Program-made: the position numbers and the translations under genes | Shown here: piece after piece, positions 4,955 through 41,291 of the stretch | How positions within the stretch are numbered: the stretch's first letter is position 1 | How the letters are laid out: every line of letters starts with the position of its first letter | From: Aureimonas phyllosphaerae | GTDB taxonomy: Bacteria; Pseudomonadota; Alphaproteobacteria; Rhizobiales; Rhizobiaceae | DNA length: 64,000 nt | Reading direction: 5' to 3' | Assembly: GCF_900113065.1 (NCBI RefSeq) | Contig: NZ_FOOA01000011.1 | Coordinates: 62,001 to 126,000, forward strand | The notes under the pieces: model-generated | What the model saw: the letters and a program-made list of their open reading frames with translations, nothing else | What the model was told of the DNA's origin: nothing | The model's database searches: none

Positions 4955-6502
4955 ATGTCCCCCACGCATCACGATCCCCTACCCGTCGATCTTCATCCCA
5001 CGTCGGACCCGCTTCCGGCCGCGGGCACGACGATCCTTGAACTGCGCCAGCTCGCCAAGAGCTACGGCCCGGTGCTTGCGCTGAAGCCCGCCTCGCTCGC
5101 CTTCAAGGCCGGCGAAGTGCACGCGATCGTCGGCGAGAACGGCGCAGGCAAGTCGACGCTGATCAAGCTCCTCACCGGCGTGATCCGTCGCACCAGCGGC
5201 GAGGTCCTGTGGCAGGGCAAGCCGGTCGATCTCGCGACCCCGCAGGAAGCGATCGATCACGGCATCAACGCCGTGCACCAGGAAGTGGTGCTGTGCCGGC
5301 ACCTGTCGGTCGCCGCCAACATCTTCCTCGGCGACGAGAGCGTTCGCTTCGGCCTCCTTCAGAAGCGCAAGATGAACGAGGCCGCGCAGGCGATCCTCGA
5401 CGATCTCGGCTTCCATCTGCCGGCCGAGGCCGAGCTCGGCTCGCTCACGATCGGCCAGCAGCAGCTGGTCGCCACAGCCCGCGCCTCGCTGCGCGGGACG
5501 CGCTTCCTGATCTTCGATGAGCCGACCGCCTACCTGACGCGTCAGGAGGCCGCCCAGCTCTTCACGCTGATCCGCCGCCTCAAGTCCGAAGGCGTGACGA
5601 TCGTCTACATCAGCCATCGCATGGAGGAGATCTTCGAGCTCGCCGACCGCGTGTCGGTCTTGCGCGACGGCACCCATGTCGGCACCCGGCTGATCGGCGA
5701 GACCAACGACGCCGAACTCGTCGCGATGATGATCAACCGCTCGCTGGATCAGATCTATCACAAGGACGACGTGCCGATCGGCGCCCCGCTGATCGAGGCG
5801 CGCAACCTCTCAGGCGCCGGCTTCTCCGACGTTTCGCTCACCGTTCGGGCGGGCGAGATCGTCGGGCTCTACGGCCTGATCGGCGCGGGTCGCAGCGAGT
5901 TCGCGCTCAGCCTCTTCGGGCGCAATCCGAAGACCGACGGGCAGATCCTCTGGAAGGGGCAGCCGGTCGACATTGCGACCGAGCGCAAGGCGATCGATCT
6001 CGGCATCGCGCTCGCGCCCGAAAGCCGCCGCGACCAGGGTCTCGCCCTCAATCTCCCGATCGGGCTGAACCTCAACCTTCCGATCTACGACCGGCTGACG
6101 AAGGGGATCACGATCTCCTCGCGGATGGAGGCCGAGCACGCCGACCGGCAGATCAAGAACCTGTCGATCAAGACCCCCAGCCGCCGGTCGCTGGCGTCGT
6201 CCATGTCGGGCGGCAACCAGCAGAAGATCGTCATCGGCAAGTGGCTCAACCACGGGGCCGAAGTCTTCATCTTCGACGAGCCGACGGTCGGCGTCGACGT
6301 GGGCACCAAAGCCGAGATCTACCGGCTCTTCGGCCAGCTCCTGAAGAACGGCGCCGGCATCCTCCTCATCTCGTCGTATCTGCCGGAAGTCTACGAACTG
6401 GCCGACACGCTGCACGTGTTCCGTGGCGGCCGCCTCGTCGGCTCGCACGGCTTCCACCAGTCCACGCACGAGGACATTCTCACCCAGGCGATCGGCGTCT
6501 GA
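4955..6502 (+). CDS. Sugar ABC transporter ATP-binding protein, two-domain RbsA type
   Basis: 515 residues with two fused nucleotide-binding halves, as in RbsA/MglA. The first half has Walker A GENGAGKST (60-68), a Q-rich signature LTIGQQQLV and Walker B FLIFDEPTAYL. The second half has the degenerate Walker A GLIGAGRSE typical of this family, signature MSGGNQQKI and Walker B VFIFDEPTVGVD. It powers import together with the permease at 6514. GGAGGG seven bases before the ATG supports the start. The first-half signature is atypical (IGQQQ rather than SGGQ), as in several CUT2 ATPases. Confidence 0.93.
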   Translation: MSPTHHDPLPVDLHPTSDPLPAAGTTILELRQLAKSYGPVLALKPASLAFKAGEVHAIVGENGAGKSTLIKLLTGVIRRTSGEVLWQGKPVDLATPQEAIDHGINAVHQEVVLCRHLSVAANIFLGDESVRFGLLQKRKMNEAAQAILDDLGFHLPAEAELGSLTIGQQQLVATARASLRGTRFLIFDEPTAYLTRQEAAQLFTLIRRLKSEGVTIVYISHRMEEIFELADRVSVLRDGTHVGTRLIGETNDAELVAMMINRSLDQIYHKDDVPIGAPLIEARNLSGAGFSDVSLTVRAGEIVGLYGLIGAGRSEFALSLFGRNPKTDGQILWKGQPVDIATERKAIDLGIALAPESRRDQGLALNLPIGLNLNLPIYDRLTKGITISSRMEAEHADRQIKNLSIKTPSRRSLASSMSGGNQQKIVIGKWLNHGAEVFIFDEPTVGVDVGTKAEIYRLFGQLLKNGAGILLISSYLPEVYELADTLHVFRGGRLVGSHGFHQSTHEDILTQAIGV

Positions 6503-34772: not shown

Positions 34773-34868
34773 TTTTGCGCAGTTCGATAACGGACCAACC
34801 CCGGATTGGATCGGTTCGTATGACTGCCATATCGATTTAGGTCCATCATCTTCCAATTCTGCGCAAAA
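34773..34868. promoter_or_regulatory. Spaced inverted repeat TTTTGCGCAG ... CTGCGCAAAA
   Basis: TTTTGCGCAG at 34773-34782 and its exact reverse complement at 34859-34868; centres are 86 bp apart, about eight helical turns. Each copy has the palindromic core TGCGCA. Two such sites could be bound by one repressor dimer-pair with DNA looping, as in LacI-type sugar operons. No regulator gene lies beside it. Confidence 0.45.
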
Positions 34869-35103: not shown

Positions 35104-36147
35104 ATGATGTCGCGCAGCACCGTCCACCGCATCGCCGGCCTCGTCGCCAGCACCGCCATCGCAGCCTGCCTCATGGCGTCCGCGCCCGCCCGCGCCCAGG
35201 ACGACATCCTGATCGGCCTCGTCACCAAGACCGAAGCCAACCCCTTCTTCGCCAAGATGCGCCAGGGCGCCAGCGAGAAGGCCGCCGAGCTCGGCGTCAA
35301 GTTCCAGAGCTTCGCGGGCAAGTTCGACGGTGATCACGACAGCCAGGTCACGGCCGTCGAGAACCTCATCTCGGCCGGTGCCAGCGGCATCCTCATCGTC
35401 GCCAGCGACTCTAAGGCCATCGTACCGGTCCTCGAGCAGGCCCGTCAGGCCGGCATCCTCGTGATCGCCCTCGACACGCCGCTCGACCCCGCCAACTCGG
35501 CGGACCAGACCTTCGCCACCGACAACGTGAAGGCCGGCGAGCTGATCGGCCAGTGGGCCGCCAAGACGGTGTCCGATCCGAAGACCGCGAAGGTCGGCTT
35601 CCTCGACGCCATCGAGACGCAGCCGACCGTCGACGTCGCGCGCGACCAGGGCTTCATGAAGGGCTTCGGCATCGATCCGAAGGACATGAGCCGCTACCTC
35701 GACGAGGACGACGCGCGCATCGTCGGCCACCAGTGGGGCGCGGGTTCCGAGGAAGGCGGGCGCACGGGCGCCGAACTCCTCCTCCAGAAGGACCCCGACC
35801 TCAACGTCTTCTACACGATCAACGAGCCGACGGCGGCCGGTGCCTACGAGGCGATCAAGGCGGCCGGCAAGGAAGGTTCCGTCGTCGTGACGTCGGTCGA
35901 CGGCGGCTGCCCGGGCGTCCAGAACGTCAAGGCGGGCGTCATCGGCGCGACCTCGATGCAGTATCCGCTGCTGATGGCCTCCAAGGGCGTCGAGGCCATC
36001 GTCAACTTCAAGAAGACGGGCGAGAAGCCGGCGGTGACGCCGGGCCTCGACTTCTTCAACACCGGCGTCGATCTCGTCACCGACAAGCCGGTGGACGGCG
36101 TCCCGTCGATCACCTCCGAGGAAGCCCTCAAGAAGTGCTGGGGCTGA
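35104..36147 (+). CDS. FrcB-like sugar ABC transporter substrate-binding protein
   Basis: 347 residues, periplasmic. Signal peptide [20 protein letters not shown]... cleaved near ARA-Q, then the type-1 fold: [87 protein letters not shown] and [14 protein letters not shown]. The pattern strongly resembles FrcB, the fructose-binding protein of rhizobia. GGGAGGA precedes the ATG at 35104; a second ATG follows directly. It heads an operon of permease, aldolase-like protein and PfkB kinase. The substrate is probably a ketose; the exact sugar is inferred. Confidence 0.88.
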
Positions 36148-36195
36148 TCGCCGCCCGCTGAGACCAAGCGCGCGCCGCTCGCGGCGCCGCCATCC

Positions 36196-36230
36196 GCGGT
36201 CGGTGCGAAAACCCCTTTCGCACCGACCGC
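36196..36230 (+). promoter_or_regulatory. Perfect intercistronic hairpin between binding-protein and permease genes
   Basis: Fifteen-base-pair perfect stem GCGGTCGGTGCGAAA / TTTCGCACCGACCGC with an ACCCC loop, 48 bp after the binding-protein stop and 31 bp before the permease start. The stem ends in A/T pairs and has no U run. It would block 3' exonucleases and keep the binding-protein mRNA, giving more binding protein than permease. Confidence 0.75.
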
Positions 36231-36261
36231 ATCGACAGGCGCACAGAGAGGGTCGGAAATC

Positions 36262-37311
36262 ATGTCCAGCGTCGAACCGACCGCGAACAACGCGGACGCC
36301 GTGGCCCATTTCGCCGAGGGTCGGCGCTCGCCGCTGCGGCGGCTGCAGCACCTCCTCCACCAGTATCCGACTATCGTGCCCTTCGTGGTGCTGGTGGTCG
36401 GTCTCCTGATCTTCAGCGCGATCGTCGGCCCGCGCTTCTTCCAGCCGTTCAACCTGTCGCTGATCATGCAGCAGGTCACGATCATCGCCGTGATCGGCAT
36501 CGCGCAGACGCTGGTGATCCTCACCGCAGGCATCGACCTGTCGGTCGGCGCGATCATGATCCTTGCGACCGTCGTCATGGGCCGGCTGGCGGTGATGATG
36601 GGCGTGCCGGCGGAACTCGCGTTCTGCATCGGCCTCGGCGTCGGGTTCGCCTGCGGCTTCCTGAACGGCCTCCTGATCACCTACGTCAAGCTGCCGCCTT
36701 TCATCGTCACGCTCGGCACCTGGAGCATCTTCGGCGCCGTCTTCCTCTGGTACAGCGGCTCGCAGACGATCCGCGCGCAGGAGGTGGCCGCCGAAGCGCC
36801 GTTCCTTCAGCTCACCGCGACCGCCATCCAGGGCGGCGGGGCCCGGCTGACATTCGGCACGGTGTTCACGCTCTTCGTCGCCGCGGTGGCCTGGTACATT
36901 CTCAACCGCACCGCCTTCGGCCGCCACGTCTACGCGACCGGCGACGACCCGGAAGCCGCGCGTCTCTCGGGCATCGACACGCGCCGCGTTCTCCTCGCCG
37001 TCTACTCGCTGTCCGGCGTCATCTGCGCCCTCGGGGCCTGGGTGCTCATCGGGCGCGTCGGCGCCATCAGCCCGACCTCGGGCGGACAGGCGAACCTCGA
37101 TTCCATCACCGCCGTGGTGATCGGCGGCACCTCGCTCTTCGGCGGGCGCGGCTCGATCGTCGGCACGCTCATCGGCGCGCTGATCGTCGGCGTCTTCCGC
37201 AACGGCCTCGCCCTCTCCGGTCTCGACGCCCTCTGGCAGGAGTTCGCGGTCGGCATCCTCATCATCGTCGCCGTCGGCCTGGATCAGTGGATCCGCAAGG
37301 TCTCGGCCTGA
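36262..37311 (+). CDS. FrcC-like sugar ABC transporter permease
   Basis: 349 residues, inner membrane. An N-terminal cytoplasmic tail of about 40 residues precedes the CUT2 permease core: LVILTAGIDLSVGAIMIL, VKLPPFIVTLGT, YATGDDPEAARLSGIDTRR and GGTSLFGGRGSIVGTLIGAL. It resembles FrcC of rhizobia. No ATP-binding gene follows: the next genes are the aldolase-like protein and the kinase, so the transporter must borrow an ATPase encoded elsewhere. Confidence 0.88.
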   Translation: MSSVEPTANNADAVAHFAEGRRSPLRRLQHLLHQYPTIVPFVVLVVGLLIFSAIVGPRFFQPFNLSLIMQQVTIIAVIGIAQTLVILTAGIDLSVGAIMILATVVMGRLAVMMGVPAELAFCIGLGVGFACGFLNGLLITYVKLPPFIVTLGTWSIFGAVFLWYSGSQTIRAQEVAAEAPFLQLTATAIQGGGARLTFGTVFTLFVAAVAWYILNRTAFGRHVYATGDDPEAARLSGIDTRRVLLAVYSLSGVICALGAWVLIGRVGAISPTSGGQANLDSITAVVIGGTSLFGGRGSIVGTLIGALIVGVFRNGLALSGLDALWQEFAVGILIIVAVGLDQWIRKVSA

Positions 37312-37354
37312 CCGCCCCTCGCCCGCTCATTTGCATTCCTCGGAGCCCATCCCC

Positions 37355-38359
37355 ATGACCACCGCCAAGACCATGGACCTCAAGCTCGCCCGCATCCGGC
37401 GCGGCGAATACACGCCGAAGGACTTCATCATCGCCGACGCCAAGGACGGCGACATGGCGCTCGGCGTCGGCGTCTCCGGCCCGGAGCACGATGCCGACGG
37501 CAAGCCGACGGGCAAGATGCGCCCGCTCAAGGTCTATCGCGACGCGATGGAAGAGATGGTGAAGTCGGGCCTCGTCGACATCATGCTGACCTCGCTCTCC
37601 TCGGCCGAGCATCTGGCATCCCGCGGGGTCTATGCCGATACGGACGTCACGTCCGCCGTACGCCTCAACGACGGCAGCGACATCTGGCATTGGCGCGGCG
37701 CCAACTACAAGCATCTTCCGACCGTGCCCTTCCGCACGGCGCGCCTCGACCGCGTGAAGCCGGTCTCCGACCTCGGCCTCTATGCCGTGACCTTCTTCAA
37801 CGACCTCGATCAGGACCTGCGCACGATCGAAGCCTATTCGAAGTTCCGCGACGAGGCGTCGGCGGCCGGTGTGCGGCACTTCCTCGAAGTGTTCAACCCA
37901 CAGTTCGAGGTGAAGGCGCCGGGCTCGGATTTCTACACCTACAACAACGACTTCATCGCCAAGATCCTCGCCGGCGTCTCGAAGCACGACCGGCCGGAGT
38001 TCCTCAAGGTCGTCTACAACGGCCCGAAGGCGACGGAGGAGCTCGCTTCGTTCGATCCCGGCAACCTCATCGTCGGCATTCTCGGCGGCGCCTCGTCCAC
38101 CAACCGCGATACGCTGGAGATGGTGAAGCAGGCCGAGAAGTACGGCGCGCGGGTCGCCCTGTTCGGCCGCAAGATCTTCTTCGCCGAGGACTCCAAGGCC
38201 ATCGTGCGCGCCATGCGCTCGGTGATCGAGGACGACGTCTCGTCGGAAGAGGCGACGAAGGCCTACCACGACCACTTGCAGAAGAACGGCATCCGGCCGA
38301 AGAAGTCGCTCGAAGAGGATCTCGAGATCACCGATCCGTCGCTGAAGATGGGAGCCTGA
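37355..38359 (+). CDS. Class-I-aldolase-like TIM-barrel protein (DhnA/LacD/DeoC-related), substrate unknown
   Basis: 334 residues. I do not know a characterised close relative. Visible features fit a Schiff-base aldolase barrel: an early strand DFIIADAKDG, FLKVVYNG with candidate Schiff-base Lys218, the glycine-rich phosphate loop VGILGGASS (240-248) and FGRKIFFAEDS (270-280), the GR-x-IF pattern of DhnA-type aldolases. The 50-residue C-terminal tail is highly charged. The ATG at 37355 has CGGAG upstream; ATG 37373 is possible. Placed between a sugar permease and a PfkB kinase 4 bp downstream, it probably cleaves the phosphorylated imported sugar. Family inference is moderate. Confidence 0.7.
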   Translation: MTTAKTMDLKLARIRRGEYTPKDFIIADAKDGDMALGVGVSGPEHDADGKPTGKMRPLKVYRDAMEEMVKSGLVDIMLTSLSSAEHLASRGVYADTDVTSAVRLNDGSDIWHWRGANYKHLPTVPFRTARLDRVKPVSDLGLYAVTFFNDLDQDLRTIEAYSKFRDEASAAGVRHFLEVFNPQFEVKAPGSDFYTYNNDFIAKILAGVSKHDRPEFLKVVYNGPKATEELASFDPGNLIVGILGGASSTNRDTLEMVKQAEKYGARVALFGRKIFFAEDSKAIVRAMRSVIEDDVSSEEATKAYHDHLQKNGIRPKKSLEEDLEITDPSLKMGA

Positions 38360-38363
38360 CCCC

Positions 38364-39395
38364 ATGTCCGCAGGGCAGCGGCGCGGCTTCCTGACCGGGG
38401 GAACCTGGTGCGCCGACCACAACAAGCTTCTCGACCGCTGGCCGGTCGAGGAAACCGTGACGCGCATCCTCGAGGAGAGCGTCGAGGGCGGCGGCTCGGC
38501 CTGCAACTTCGGCATCGACATCCGCCGGCTCGACCCGTCGATGCCGGTGGCGACCATCGGCTGCGTCGGCGACGACGAGGACGGCCGCATCCTCCTGCGC
38601 TACGCCGACGACAACGGCATCGATCGCCAAGGCATGCGGGTGATCGCGGGCGGGCGCACCAACTACACCGACGCCTACAGCGCGCGCGACACCGGCAAGC
38701 GCACGCATATCTTTCACCAGGGCACGAGCGCCCTCCTCTCGCCCGACCACTTCGACTTCGCAGGTACGACGGCGCGGATCTTCCATCTCGGGCTGCCGGG
38801 CATCCACGACGTGATGGACAATGCCTGGAAGGGCGAGGTGAACGGCTGGGTGGCGACGCTGAAGGCGGCGCGCGCGGCGGGTCTCGAGACCAACTTCGAA
38901 CTCCTGCAGATCGCGCCGGAGCGCCTGCGCGAACTCGCCGAGCCGTGCCTGCCCCATCTCGATACGCTCGTCATCAACGACTACGAGATCGGCGCGATCA
39001 CCGGCACGCAGACGACGCGCGACGGCGAGACCGACATTGCGGCCTGCGAGGCGGCGGGGCGCCAGATCATGGAGCGCAGCGCGGTCAAGGTGCTGGCCAT
39101 CCACTTCCCGCGGGCGGCCATCGCCTTCACGCGGGACGGAGCGGTCTACCGCCACCCGTCCGTCAACGTGCCGCAATCGGAGGTGCGCGGTGCCAACGGC
39201 GCGGGCGACGCGTTCGCCGCAGGCTTCATGTACGGCTACCACGAGGCCCGACCGGTGCCGGACTGCCTCAAGCTGGCCCATGCCAGCGCCGCCGCCTCGC
39301 TCCGCAGCGTTGGAACGACGGGCAGCGTCGAGACGGCCGAGCGGTGTCTCGCTCTCGCTGAAGGCTGGGGCTGGCGCGCGATGCCGAACACCTGA
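38364..39395 (+). CDS. PfkB-family carbohydrate kinase
   Basis: 343 residues. The ribokinase-fold signature RGANGAGDAFAAGF (275-288) holds the anion hole and catalytic Asp282; the N-terminal VEGGGSACNFGIDIRRL (40-56) is the sugar-binding GG motif, and TIGCVGDDEDG follows. Length is slightly above the family mean. It phosphorylates a sugar, probably the one taken up by the FrcB/FrcC-like proteins. It starts 4 bp after the aldolase-like gene and ends the operon, convergent with the exporter gene 17 bp away. In the fructose system the corresponding kinase is FrcK, a different family, so this module is not simply frcBCAK. Confidence 0.88.
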   Translation: MSAGQRRGFLTGGTWCADHNKLLDRWPVEETVTRILEESVEGGGSACNFGIDIRRLDPSMPVATIGCVGDDEDGRILLRYADDNGIDRQGMRVIAGGRTNYTDAYSARDTGKRTHIFHQGTSALLSPDHFDFAGTTARIFHLGLPGIHDVMDNAWKGEVNGWVATLKAARAAGLETNFELLQIAPERLRELAEPCLPHLDTLVINDYEIGAITGTQTTRDGETDIAACEAAGRQIMERSAVKVLAIHFPRAAIAFTRDGAVYRHPSVNVPQSEVRGANGAGDAFAAGFMYGYHEARPVPDCLKLAHASAAASLRSVGTTGSVETAERCLALAEGWGWRAMPNT

Positions 39396-39412: not shown

Positions 39413-41167
39413 CTACTCGGCCGCCGGGCGCTCTCCAAGTCCTACGCCGCCGTGCAGTCGCTCCTGCGCATCGTTCAGGCGGCGATAGGCACCGCCAAGG
39501 GCCATGAGTTCGGCGTGGCTGCCGAGTTCCGCGATCCGTCCGTCGATGACCACGGCGATGCGGTCGGCATGGCGGATGGTCGACAGGCGATGGGCGATGA
39601 CGAGCGTCGTCCGCCCTTCGGCGAGTTCGGCGAGCGAGGCCTGGATCGCCCGCTCGGTTTCCGTGTCGAGCGCCGAGGTCGCCTCGTCGAGGATGAGGAT
39701 TTCCGGGTTCTTCAGGAACATGCGCGCGATCGACAGGCGCTGCTTCTGTCCGCCCGACAACTTGACGCCGCGCTCGCCGACGACCGTGTCCAGCCCGTCC
39801 GGCAGAGCCGCGATGGTCTCGGTGAGGTGCGCGCGCTCGACGGCGTCGGCGATCTCCGCCTCGCCGGCGTCGAGACGCCCATAGGCGACGTTCTCGCGCA
39901 CCGTCCCGCCGAACAGGAAGACATCCTGCTGCACGATGCCGATATGACGGCGCAGCGAGGCGAGCGTCAGGGAGCGAATGTCCTGACCGTCGACGAGGAT
40001 CGCGCCGGCGCTGACGTCGTAAAAGCGCGGGACCAGCGAGCAGATCGTGGTCTTGCCGGCGCCGGACGGACCGACGAAGGCGACCGTCTCGCCGGCTCGG
40101 ATTTCGAGGTCGATTCCCTTCAGGACAGGACGGGAGTCCTTGTACGCGAAACGGACGTCCCGAAATGCGATCGCTCCAGTGACACCCGTCAGCGTGCGCG
40201 CACCCGGCGCATCGGCGATCTCGGGCTTTGTGTCGAGGAAGTCGGTATAGCGGCGGAAGCCCGCGATGCCCTTCGGATAGGTCTCCAGAACGGCCGCGAT
40301 CTTCTCGACCGGGCGGAAGAAGACGCCGACGAGGAGCAGGAAGCCGACGAAGCCGCCGTAGCTCAGCTCGCCCTTCATGACGTACCAGGTACCGGCCAGC
40401 ATCACGATGACCTGCGTCAGGCGCATGGTCAGGTAGTTCAGCGACTGGCTGATCGCCATGATCCGGTAGGCGTCGAGCTTTCGGGCGCGATAGCCCACGT
40501 TGTTGCGGGCAAAGAGCGCGCGCTCGTGCTCCTCGTTGGCGAAGCTCTTCACGACGCGGATGCCGCCGACATTCTCTTCGATACGTGCGTTGAAGTCGCC
40601 GATCGAGCCGTAGATCGCCTGCCAGGTCGCCGTCATGCGGCTGCCGTAGCGCGTCGTGAGCCAGGAGCCGACCGGCACCACGACGGCCGTAATCAACGCC
40701 AGTTCGACATGCACGGCGAGCATCAGGAAGAAGGCGCCGATGAAGGTCATCACGGCGATGAAAAGGTCTTCCGGCCCATGATGGGCCACCTCGCCGATCT
40801 CTTCGAGATCCTTGGTCAGGCGGGCCACGAGATGGCCGGTCTTCTGGTTGTCGAAAAAGCCGAACGACAGCGTCTGAAGATGCTCGAACGCTTTGCGCCG
40901 CATCTCGGTCTCGATGTTGATGCCGAGCATGTGGCCCCAGTAGGTGACCACCGCCATCAGACCGGTGTTGAGGACGTAGATCGCCAGCAGTCCAGCCGAG
41001 GCGAGGACGATCAGCCCCCAGTTGCCGCTGGGGAGAAGGTCGTCGACGAAAACTTTCACCGCGATGGGAAAGCCGAGTTCGAGAAGACCGGCCAGCACGG
41101 CGCAGGAGAAGTCGAGCAGGAAAAGCCCGCGCCAGGGGGCGTAGTAGGAAAAGAAACGCGCGAGCAT
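39413..41167 (-). CDS. ABC exporter, fused membrane and ATP-binding domains
   Basis: 584 residues, half-transporter. Six membrane helices (about 15-310) are followed by a nucleotide-binding domain: Walker A FVGPSGAGKTT, Q-loop IVQQDVFLF, signature KLSGGQKQRL, Walker B ILILDEATSALD and switch VIAHRLSTI. It works as a homodimer expelling lipids, drugs or other hydrophobic compounds. The ATG at 41167 with AGGATG upstream (MLARFFSYYAPW) is chosen over a longer reading. It lies downstream of the second FucU-like gene but with a 124-bp gap, so it may have its own promoter. Confidence 0.9.
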   Translation of the reverse strand: MLARFFSYYAPWRGLFLLDFSCAVLAGLLELGFPIAVKVFVDDLLPSGNWGLIVLASAGLLAIYVLNTGLMAVVTYWGHMLGINIETEMRRKAFEHLQTLSFGFFDNQKTGHLVARLTKDLEEIGEVAHHGPEDLFIAVMTFIGAFFLMLAVHVELALITAVVVPVGSWLTTRYGSRMTATWQAIYGSIGDFNARIEENVGGIRVVKSFANEEHERALFARNNVGYRARKLDAYRIMAISQSLNYLTMRLTQVIVMLAGTWYVMKGELSYGGFVGFLLLVGVFFRPVEKIAAVLETYPKGIAGFRRYTDFLDTKPEIADAPGARTLTGVTGAIAFRDVRFAYKDSRPVLKGIDLEIRAGETVAFVGPSGAGKTTICSLVPRFYDVSAGAILVDGQDIRSLTLASLRRHIGIVQQDVFLFGGTVRENVAYGRLDAGEAEIADAVERAHLTETIAALPDGLDTVVGERGVKLSGGQKQRLSIARMFLKNPEILILDEATSALDTETERAIQASLAELAEGRTTLVIAHRLSTIRHADRIAVVIDGRIAELGSHAELMALGGAYRRLNDAQERLHGGVGLGERPAAE

Positions 41168-41291
41168 GGCATCCTCATGAGCCGGGCGCACCATGGTTGG
41201 CCGACGCCCGGTCTCCTTATTGCGGACCCGAAGGCCCCTCGCGCTTGCTGTAGGAAACCTGACTCTCGGCGTCAAATTTCCGCGGATGGCA

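Follow-up and report, generated by a model that had tools for sequence, protein, structure and literature searches.

The frcBCAK genes form the fructose transporter locus of Sinorhizobium meliloti, as described in PMC10433430. The operon described in this study, from Aureimonas phyllosphaerae, resembles that locus in possessing a FrcB-like sugar-binding protein (SBP) and a FrcC-like permease (PERM), but it has neither an ATPase gene nor FrcK, and it carries an aldolase-like protein (ALD) and a PfkB-family kinase (KIN). These four genes, named here in their order, lie on a stretch of 64,000 nucleotides (the window, G000:C20:62001-126000) of a draft assembly of 4.7 Mb in 60 contigs. Overall, the operon is an otherwise ordinary Frc-like catabolic module minus its motor gene, plus an undescribed aldolase-like family.

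Closest in layout are the five-gene operons of Shinella, Pararhizobium, Sinorhizobium, and Aureimonas sp. AU20, which have the same order with ALD adjoining KIN; they keep the ATPase and, where annotated, a ROK regulator alongside, whereas the operon of the window has neither. Like the CUT1 importers served by multitask ATPases (MsmX, MsmK), this importer operon lacks an ATPase gene and would draw its energy from elsewhere; unlike them, the importer is of the CUT2 type. In an account of 2020, ATPase sharing is reported exclusively for CUT1 (PMC7658222). In the sulfo-Embden-Meyerhof-Parnas (sulfo-EMP) type, according to PMC12421959, a PfkB-type kinase (PF00294) is followed by a class I ketose-1-phosphate aldolase (PF01791). 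KIN and ALD would share the chemical logic of that kinase and aldolase, but ALD has no PF01791 match; a sulfosugar substrate, suggested by a fold match of ALD to 8tnf, found no further support and was rejected. A literature search over partial texts turned up no published description of this gene set or of ATPase sharing in CUT2 systems.

Loss of the ATPase gene in one Aureimonas clade

SBP (35104..36147, forward strand), PERM (36262..37311, +), ALD (37355..38359, +), and KIN (38364..39395, +) follow one another with gaps of 114, 43, and 4 bp, and the open reading frame coordinates agree in this with a preliminary description of the window. SBP matches Peripla_BP_4 (154.5 bits) and has 60% identity with the FrcB encoded elsewhere in this genome, PERM is a CUT2 permease (BPD_transp_2, 135.9 bits), and KIN scores 109.3 bits against PF00294 (cut-off 25.8). 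That description had reported no importer ATPase gene in the operon, and none was found: there is only the 43-bp spacer between PERM and ALD (37312..37354, +), and the next gene downstream of KIN (39413-41194, -) encodes an exporter-type protein (ABC_membrane and ABC_tran). It had also contrasted the kinase with that of the frc locus, which is broadly right, since on S. meliloti pSymB (L226) the FrcA-type ATPase gene is followed by one annotated as 'nucleoside triphosphate hydrolase' and not as PfkB.

In the loci fetched for comparison, genes were called by a small codon-usage script. AU12 (L015), A. pseudogalii (L016), A. ureilytica (L017), and Lichenifustis (L018) carry a single-domain ATPase gene between PERM and ALD, with its start overlapping the stop of PERM in all four, and a plasmid of Aureimonas sp. 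AU20 (L117, genome G305) does likewise. The FrcA-like ATPase kept in this operon by sister species is called FrcA' here, as distinct from FrcA, the ATPase of a separate frcBCA operon. In the window and in L009-L014, this gene is absent and the PERM-ALD spacer, at its site, is just 38-49 bp. A survey of the four-gene order, proposed in the preliminary description, thus yielded seven Aureimonas species with the ATPase-less order and relatives with the ATPase as a fifth gene. Since other Aureimonas as well as Lichenifustis, Shinella, Sinorhizobium, and Pararhizobium have the five-gene form, the absence is, as judged from these comparisons, a loss within Aureimonas, a point which had been missed earlier. 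An assembly artefact was rejected as the cause, because the same junction recurs in seven genomes. The order may also vary, as in G115, where SBP, PERM, and the ATPase are followed by KIN and then ALD.

A search of 21 genomes of the genus found ALD in 11 and canonical FrcA in 18, including all 11 with ALD. A second FrcA (68-71% identity) was present only in G303, G305, G306, and G312, where it adjoins ALD, and none of about 70% was seen in the seven ATPase-less species; G309 has a second FrcA-like ATPase at 52%, beside a permease of its own. Orthologues (58-70%) of the ROK regulator adjoining the operon were found in the same four genomes only, the match in the seven ATPase-less genomes being 35% or less, or none. 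Therefore, it appears that the motor and the regulator went together. The ROK regulator match in G305 (L143, G305:C4:115178-116377) holds one in-frame TGA, and the RefSeq annotation has a slightly shorter ROK protein there. In a permease tree, the ATPase-less species form one group (82/94, and 78% of bootstrap trees), with several inner branches open; this tree included the FrcC of G297, which reads only 260 codons. That short reading, and the FrcB of G298, whose match is split into two parts that lie in different frames (L131, L132), are possibly broken genes or sequencing errors.

Twenty-two plasmid loci, chosen from the matches of plasmid-record searches with ALD and KIN, were also examined. 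A Frc-like CUT2 transporter stands directly with ALD and KIN in 10 of them, and all 10 keep the ATPase. Six others have ALD and KIN but, as their sole ATPase match, a distant one located 2 kb upstream, five have ALD without KIN, and one has a split KIN. The KIN gene of Rhizobium sp. RCAM05350 (L203, 9002-10047) is annotated as two pieces.

Selection on the importer

The ratio of nonsynonymous to synonymous substitution rates (dN/dS) was estimated by the Nei-Gojobori method as pairwise medians, with 21 pairs per gene in the ATPase-less clade and 6 in the four ATPase-keeping genomes, one FrcA' pair of the latter being unusable. The medians for SBP, PERM, ALD, and KIN are 0.108, 0.075, 0.111, and 0.105 in the ATPase-less clade, and 0.233, 0.323, 0.242, and 0.295 in the ATPase-keeping four. 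The canonical frcBCA genes differ between the clades in the same way (0.069, 0.065, and 0.040 vs 0.143, 0.141, and 0.163), and therefore only the low absolute values count. An importer operon without an ATPase gene is thus maintained in seven species, and the importer of this clade remains under purifying selection; we infer that it still works. Since it lacks an ATPase of its own, its motor is probably supplied in trans.

A candidate donor ATPase

A complete frcBCA operon is present on another contig of the genome (G000:C19), in the order ROK regulator, FrcB, FrcC, and FrcA. When FrcA' was searched against the genome of the window, 150 of 198 candidates were scored and 22 places were found at E<=1e-30; among those scored, FrcA was the closest (69-70% identical), the next being at 47%. 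In the Q-loop segment, FrcA shares 22 of 30 residues with FrcA', and the 19 other ATPases compared share 11-17. In a tree from which the short FrcC reading of G297 was left out, Aureimonas FrcA groups with S. meliloti FrcA (98/99), to which it is 79% identical. The permeases point to the same pair. In a comparison which covered those 30 permease places, out of 51 in the genome, for which a locus had been fetched, FrcC was closest to PERM (58%) and the other 28 reached at most 42%. The motif GDDxxAARLSGI is common to FrcC and PERM, whose coupling segment reads GDDPEAARLSGI; besides these two, L195 alone has GDD, in a different context. FrcA of frcBCA is therefore the best candidate donor for PERM, and sharing of FrcA with PERM is probable and well supported by comparison.

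The preliminary description had also held that the module needs an ATPase from elsewhere, naming two RbsA-type ATPases at 4955 and 22488 as possible donors. The first part holds, since transporter, kinase, and aldolase-like genes stand together without an ATPase of their own; the choice of donors does not. Both RbsA-type ATPases exist, each with two ABC_tran stretches in Pfam, and they are intact and physically near to the operon, but they are far less like FrcA' than FrcA is (38-39% overall, with 12 and 13 of the 30 positions shared in the Q-loop segment), and each has its own permease within about 1 kb. That a two-domain ATPase of this type powers the importer is thus highly improbable. A dedicated ATPase, diverged or unassembled, elsewhere in the genome would be hardly more credible: the assembly is a draft, and scoring covered part of the candidates, but a second FrcA of about 70% is missing from all seven ATPase-less species, and the 52% ATPase of G309 adjoins a permease of its own. 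A PF02653 permease lies within 1.1 kb of each of the 22 FrcA-like places, and hence no orphan ATPase was seen. The transporter might instead be a relic that has imported nothing since the ATPase was lost, so that only KIN and ALD matter. An ABC importer without its ATPase is dead unless helped, and the clade is also without the neighbouring ROK regulator; however, SBP and PERM are intact in all seven species, with dN/dS not above that of ALD and KIN, and the operon keeps a constant place between a malate-dehydrogenase-like gene (mdh) and the exporter gene. We consider a relic unlikely, and FrcA remains the preferred motor.

The aldolase-like protein

ALD has 334 residues, and the preliminary description could not place it precisely in a family. 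This is borne out, since no Pfam family is matched at E<=0.001; wherever one of the 40 plasmid records listed, out of 46, has an annotation at that place, ALD goes by the name 'hypothetical protein'. Its closest named relatives are in Aureimonas (99-82%), Lichenifustis (79%), and Ruegeria (73%). It was found in 46 of 72,556 plasmid records, and a scan of viral contigs gave one partial relative (L227). Compared with the class I aldolases LsrF, MJ0400, YihT, and archaeal fructose-bisphosphate aldolase (FBA), ALD shows 5-17% identity and scores far below every curated cut-off; unlike that group, it forms a family of its own without a Pfam model. A second ALD of the same genome, 51% identical (C22:149150-150175; L077, 9127-10176), lies on the strand opposite to nearby sugar genes, among which we take one, from its sequence, to be a PfkB-type kinase gene.

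The hidden Markov model and structure searches suggested for this protein gave weak matches to class I aldolase profiles, low-confidence matches to their folds, and no family above cut-off. The top Foldseek and VIA matches of the barrel-like model are class I aldolases, and a pooled LsrF and FBA profile matched ALD weakly (probability 26%, E 1.4e-4), with Lys218 opposite a gap. Lys218, a candidate Schiff-base residue on predicted strand 216-220, and the phosphate-type GG244-245 and GR271-272 motifs (K218, G244, G245, G271, R272) belong to 17 tested positions that are invariant in 22 of 22 homologues; a lysine on strand 6 and GG/GR phosphate motifs are presumably the catalytic and phosphate-binding features of known class I aldolase families. 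Because of these matches, the invariant lysine, and the motifs, the modelled fold and the sequence suggest that ALD is a class I aldolase acting on a sugar phosphate.

The neighbourhoods of ALD homologues fit the cleavage of a sugar phosphate to an aldehyde. ALD directly adjoins KIN in each of the 25 plasmid records where KIN was matched. Elsewhere, ALD stands by an FGGY kinase with a GlpD-type dehydrogenase and a CUT1 transporter, or by an ADP_PFK_GK kinase with a short-chain dehydrogenase/reductase, so that the kinases beside or near its homologues belong to several unrelated families; other loci, such as L019 and L082, have no kinase directly beside ALD. Just beyond the regulator of ATPase-keeping Aureimonas lie genes for an aldose epimerase and an aldehyde dehydrogenase in L015, and for a ROK-family kinase-like protein in L016. 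In Lichenicola (L209, 8004-10712), ALD is followed directly by dhaK and dhaL.

Alternatively, ALD might be a barrel enzyme that forms a Schiff base but carries out different chemistry, for example as a thiolase or by carbon transfer of the transaldolase type, in the manner of LsrF, and the pathway would then not involve aldol cleavage. LsrF, whose NCBIfam name is thiolase, and ADH synthase are indeed among its best fold and profile relatives. However, the neighbour genes of its relatives (kinases, dehydrogenases, aldehyde dehydrogenase, and aldose epimerase) resemble sugar or polyol catabolism, and no LsrG-type gene was noticed, although no search was aimed at one. Such a chemistry is the less likely reading, though one to be taken seriously, and aldol cleavage is preferred.

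Upstream elements and genomic surroundings

Upstream of SBP, an inverted pair of TTTTGCGCAG (34773-34782 on the forward strand and 34859-34868 on the reverse; 34773..34868) may be an operator; the sequence has two matches in the window vs 0.09 expected, and none of 100 shuffles had two. The SBP upstream regions of ATPase-less species contain TTTTGCGCA in 6 of 7 cases and GCGCAAAA in 7 of 7, and those of ATPase-keeping species in 0 of 5. Between SBP and PERM there is a 15-bp perfect RNA stem-loop (36196..36230, +). The intergenic region (36148-36261) folds at -58.3 kcal/mol (z -4.17; none of 200 shuffles was as stable), and the stem-loop is probably a hairpin for differential expression. A hairpin-like stretch is also visible, by sequence, between frcB and frcC in L091.

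The gene upstream of the operon, on the opposite strand, is the one that we take, from reading its sequence, to be malate-dehydrogenase-like; it and the exporter gene flank the operon in all seven ATPase-less species, which places the operon at the same genomic site. Within KIN, a 21-bp unit occurs in two copies (39095-39135).

Proposed evolution and function

The scheme that we favour is as follows. A five-gene Frc-like uptake and catabolic module (SBP, PERM, ATPase, ALD, and KIN) has lost its ATPase gene in one Aureimonas clade. SBP would bind a fructose-like monosaccharide, its pocket, by positions taken from RbsB, presumably resembling that of FrcB, and PERM would carry the sugar in with energy from FrcA, encoded in the intact frcBCA operon, so that one FrcA would drive two permeases. 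Once imported, the sugar, probably a ketose, would be phosphorylated by KIN, probably at C1; ALD may then split the resulting sugar phosphate into dihydroxyacetone phosphate and an aldehyde, with Lys218 forming the Schiff base. This pathway of phosphorylation and cleavage is plausible. Of the module for import, phosphorylation, and aldol cleavage in the preliminary description, the joint presence of transporter, kinase, and aldolase-like genes stands; its 'ketose-like' sugar and 'aldol cleavage' are still inferred.

Several observations weigh against this scheme. The dN/dS values are low in all genes of the ATPase-less clade, frcBCA included, and therefore show function and not partnership. 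Since the genome is a 60-contig draft, and scoring covered 150 of 250 candidates in the ABC scan and 150 of 198 in the FrcA' search, a further ATPase could be missed. All 13 Aureimonas frcB upstream regions contain the palindrome TGTCAAT..ATTGACA, a candidate FrcR operator (L091, 6868-7128; G000:C19:218931-218967) that occurs once in the genome, but none of 12 SBP upstream regions has it; FrcR control of the window operon was rejected on this ground, and FrcA and the orphan importer seem to be separately controlled. As for ALD, PF01791 was matched by none of 22 family members at E<=0.1, its best NCBIfam score was 40 bits against a cut-off of 241, its model has a mean pLDDT (predicted local distance difference test) of 57.9, and profile-profile comparison failed with LsrF alone and with class I FBA alone, DeoC giving no match either. 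With these points considered, the whole explanation, namely a lost motor, sharing of FrcA, phosphorylation of a ketose, and aldol cleavage by ALD, is judged slightly better than even. Somewhat short of even is the bolder proposal that Aureimonas FrcA is a multitask CUT2 ATPase, the first outside CUT1, and that ALD founds a so far undescribed class I ketose-phosphate aldolase family which pairs with at least three unrelated kinase families.

With seven species lacking and four keeping a dedicated ATPase, a single genus offers a natural experiment in which the donor is named. Members of the ALD family are distributed across Rhizobiaceae and further Alphaproteobacteria, and assigning its function would annotate many sugar and polyol loci. 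Sharing of FrcA, if true, would be a CUT2 case of what the 2020 account knew only for CUT1 (PMC7658222).

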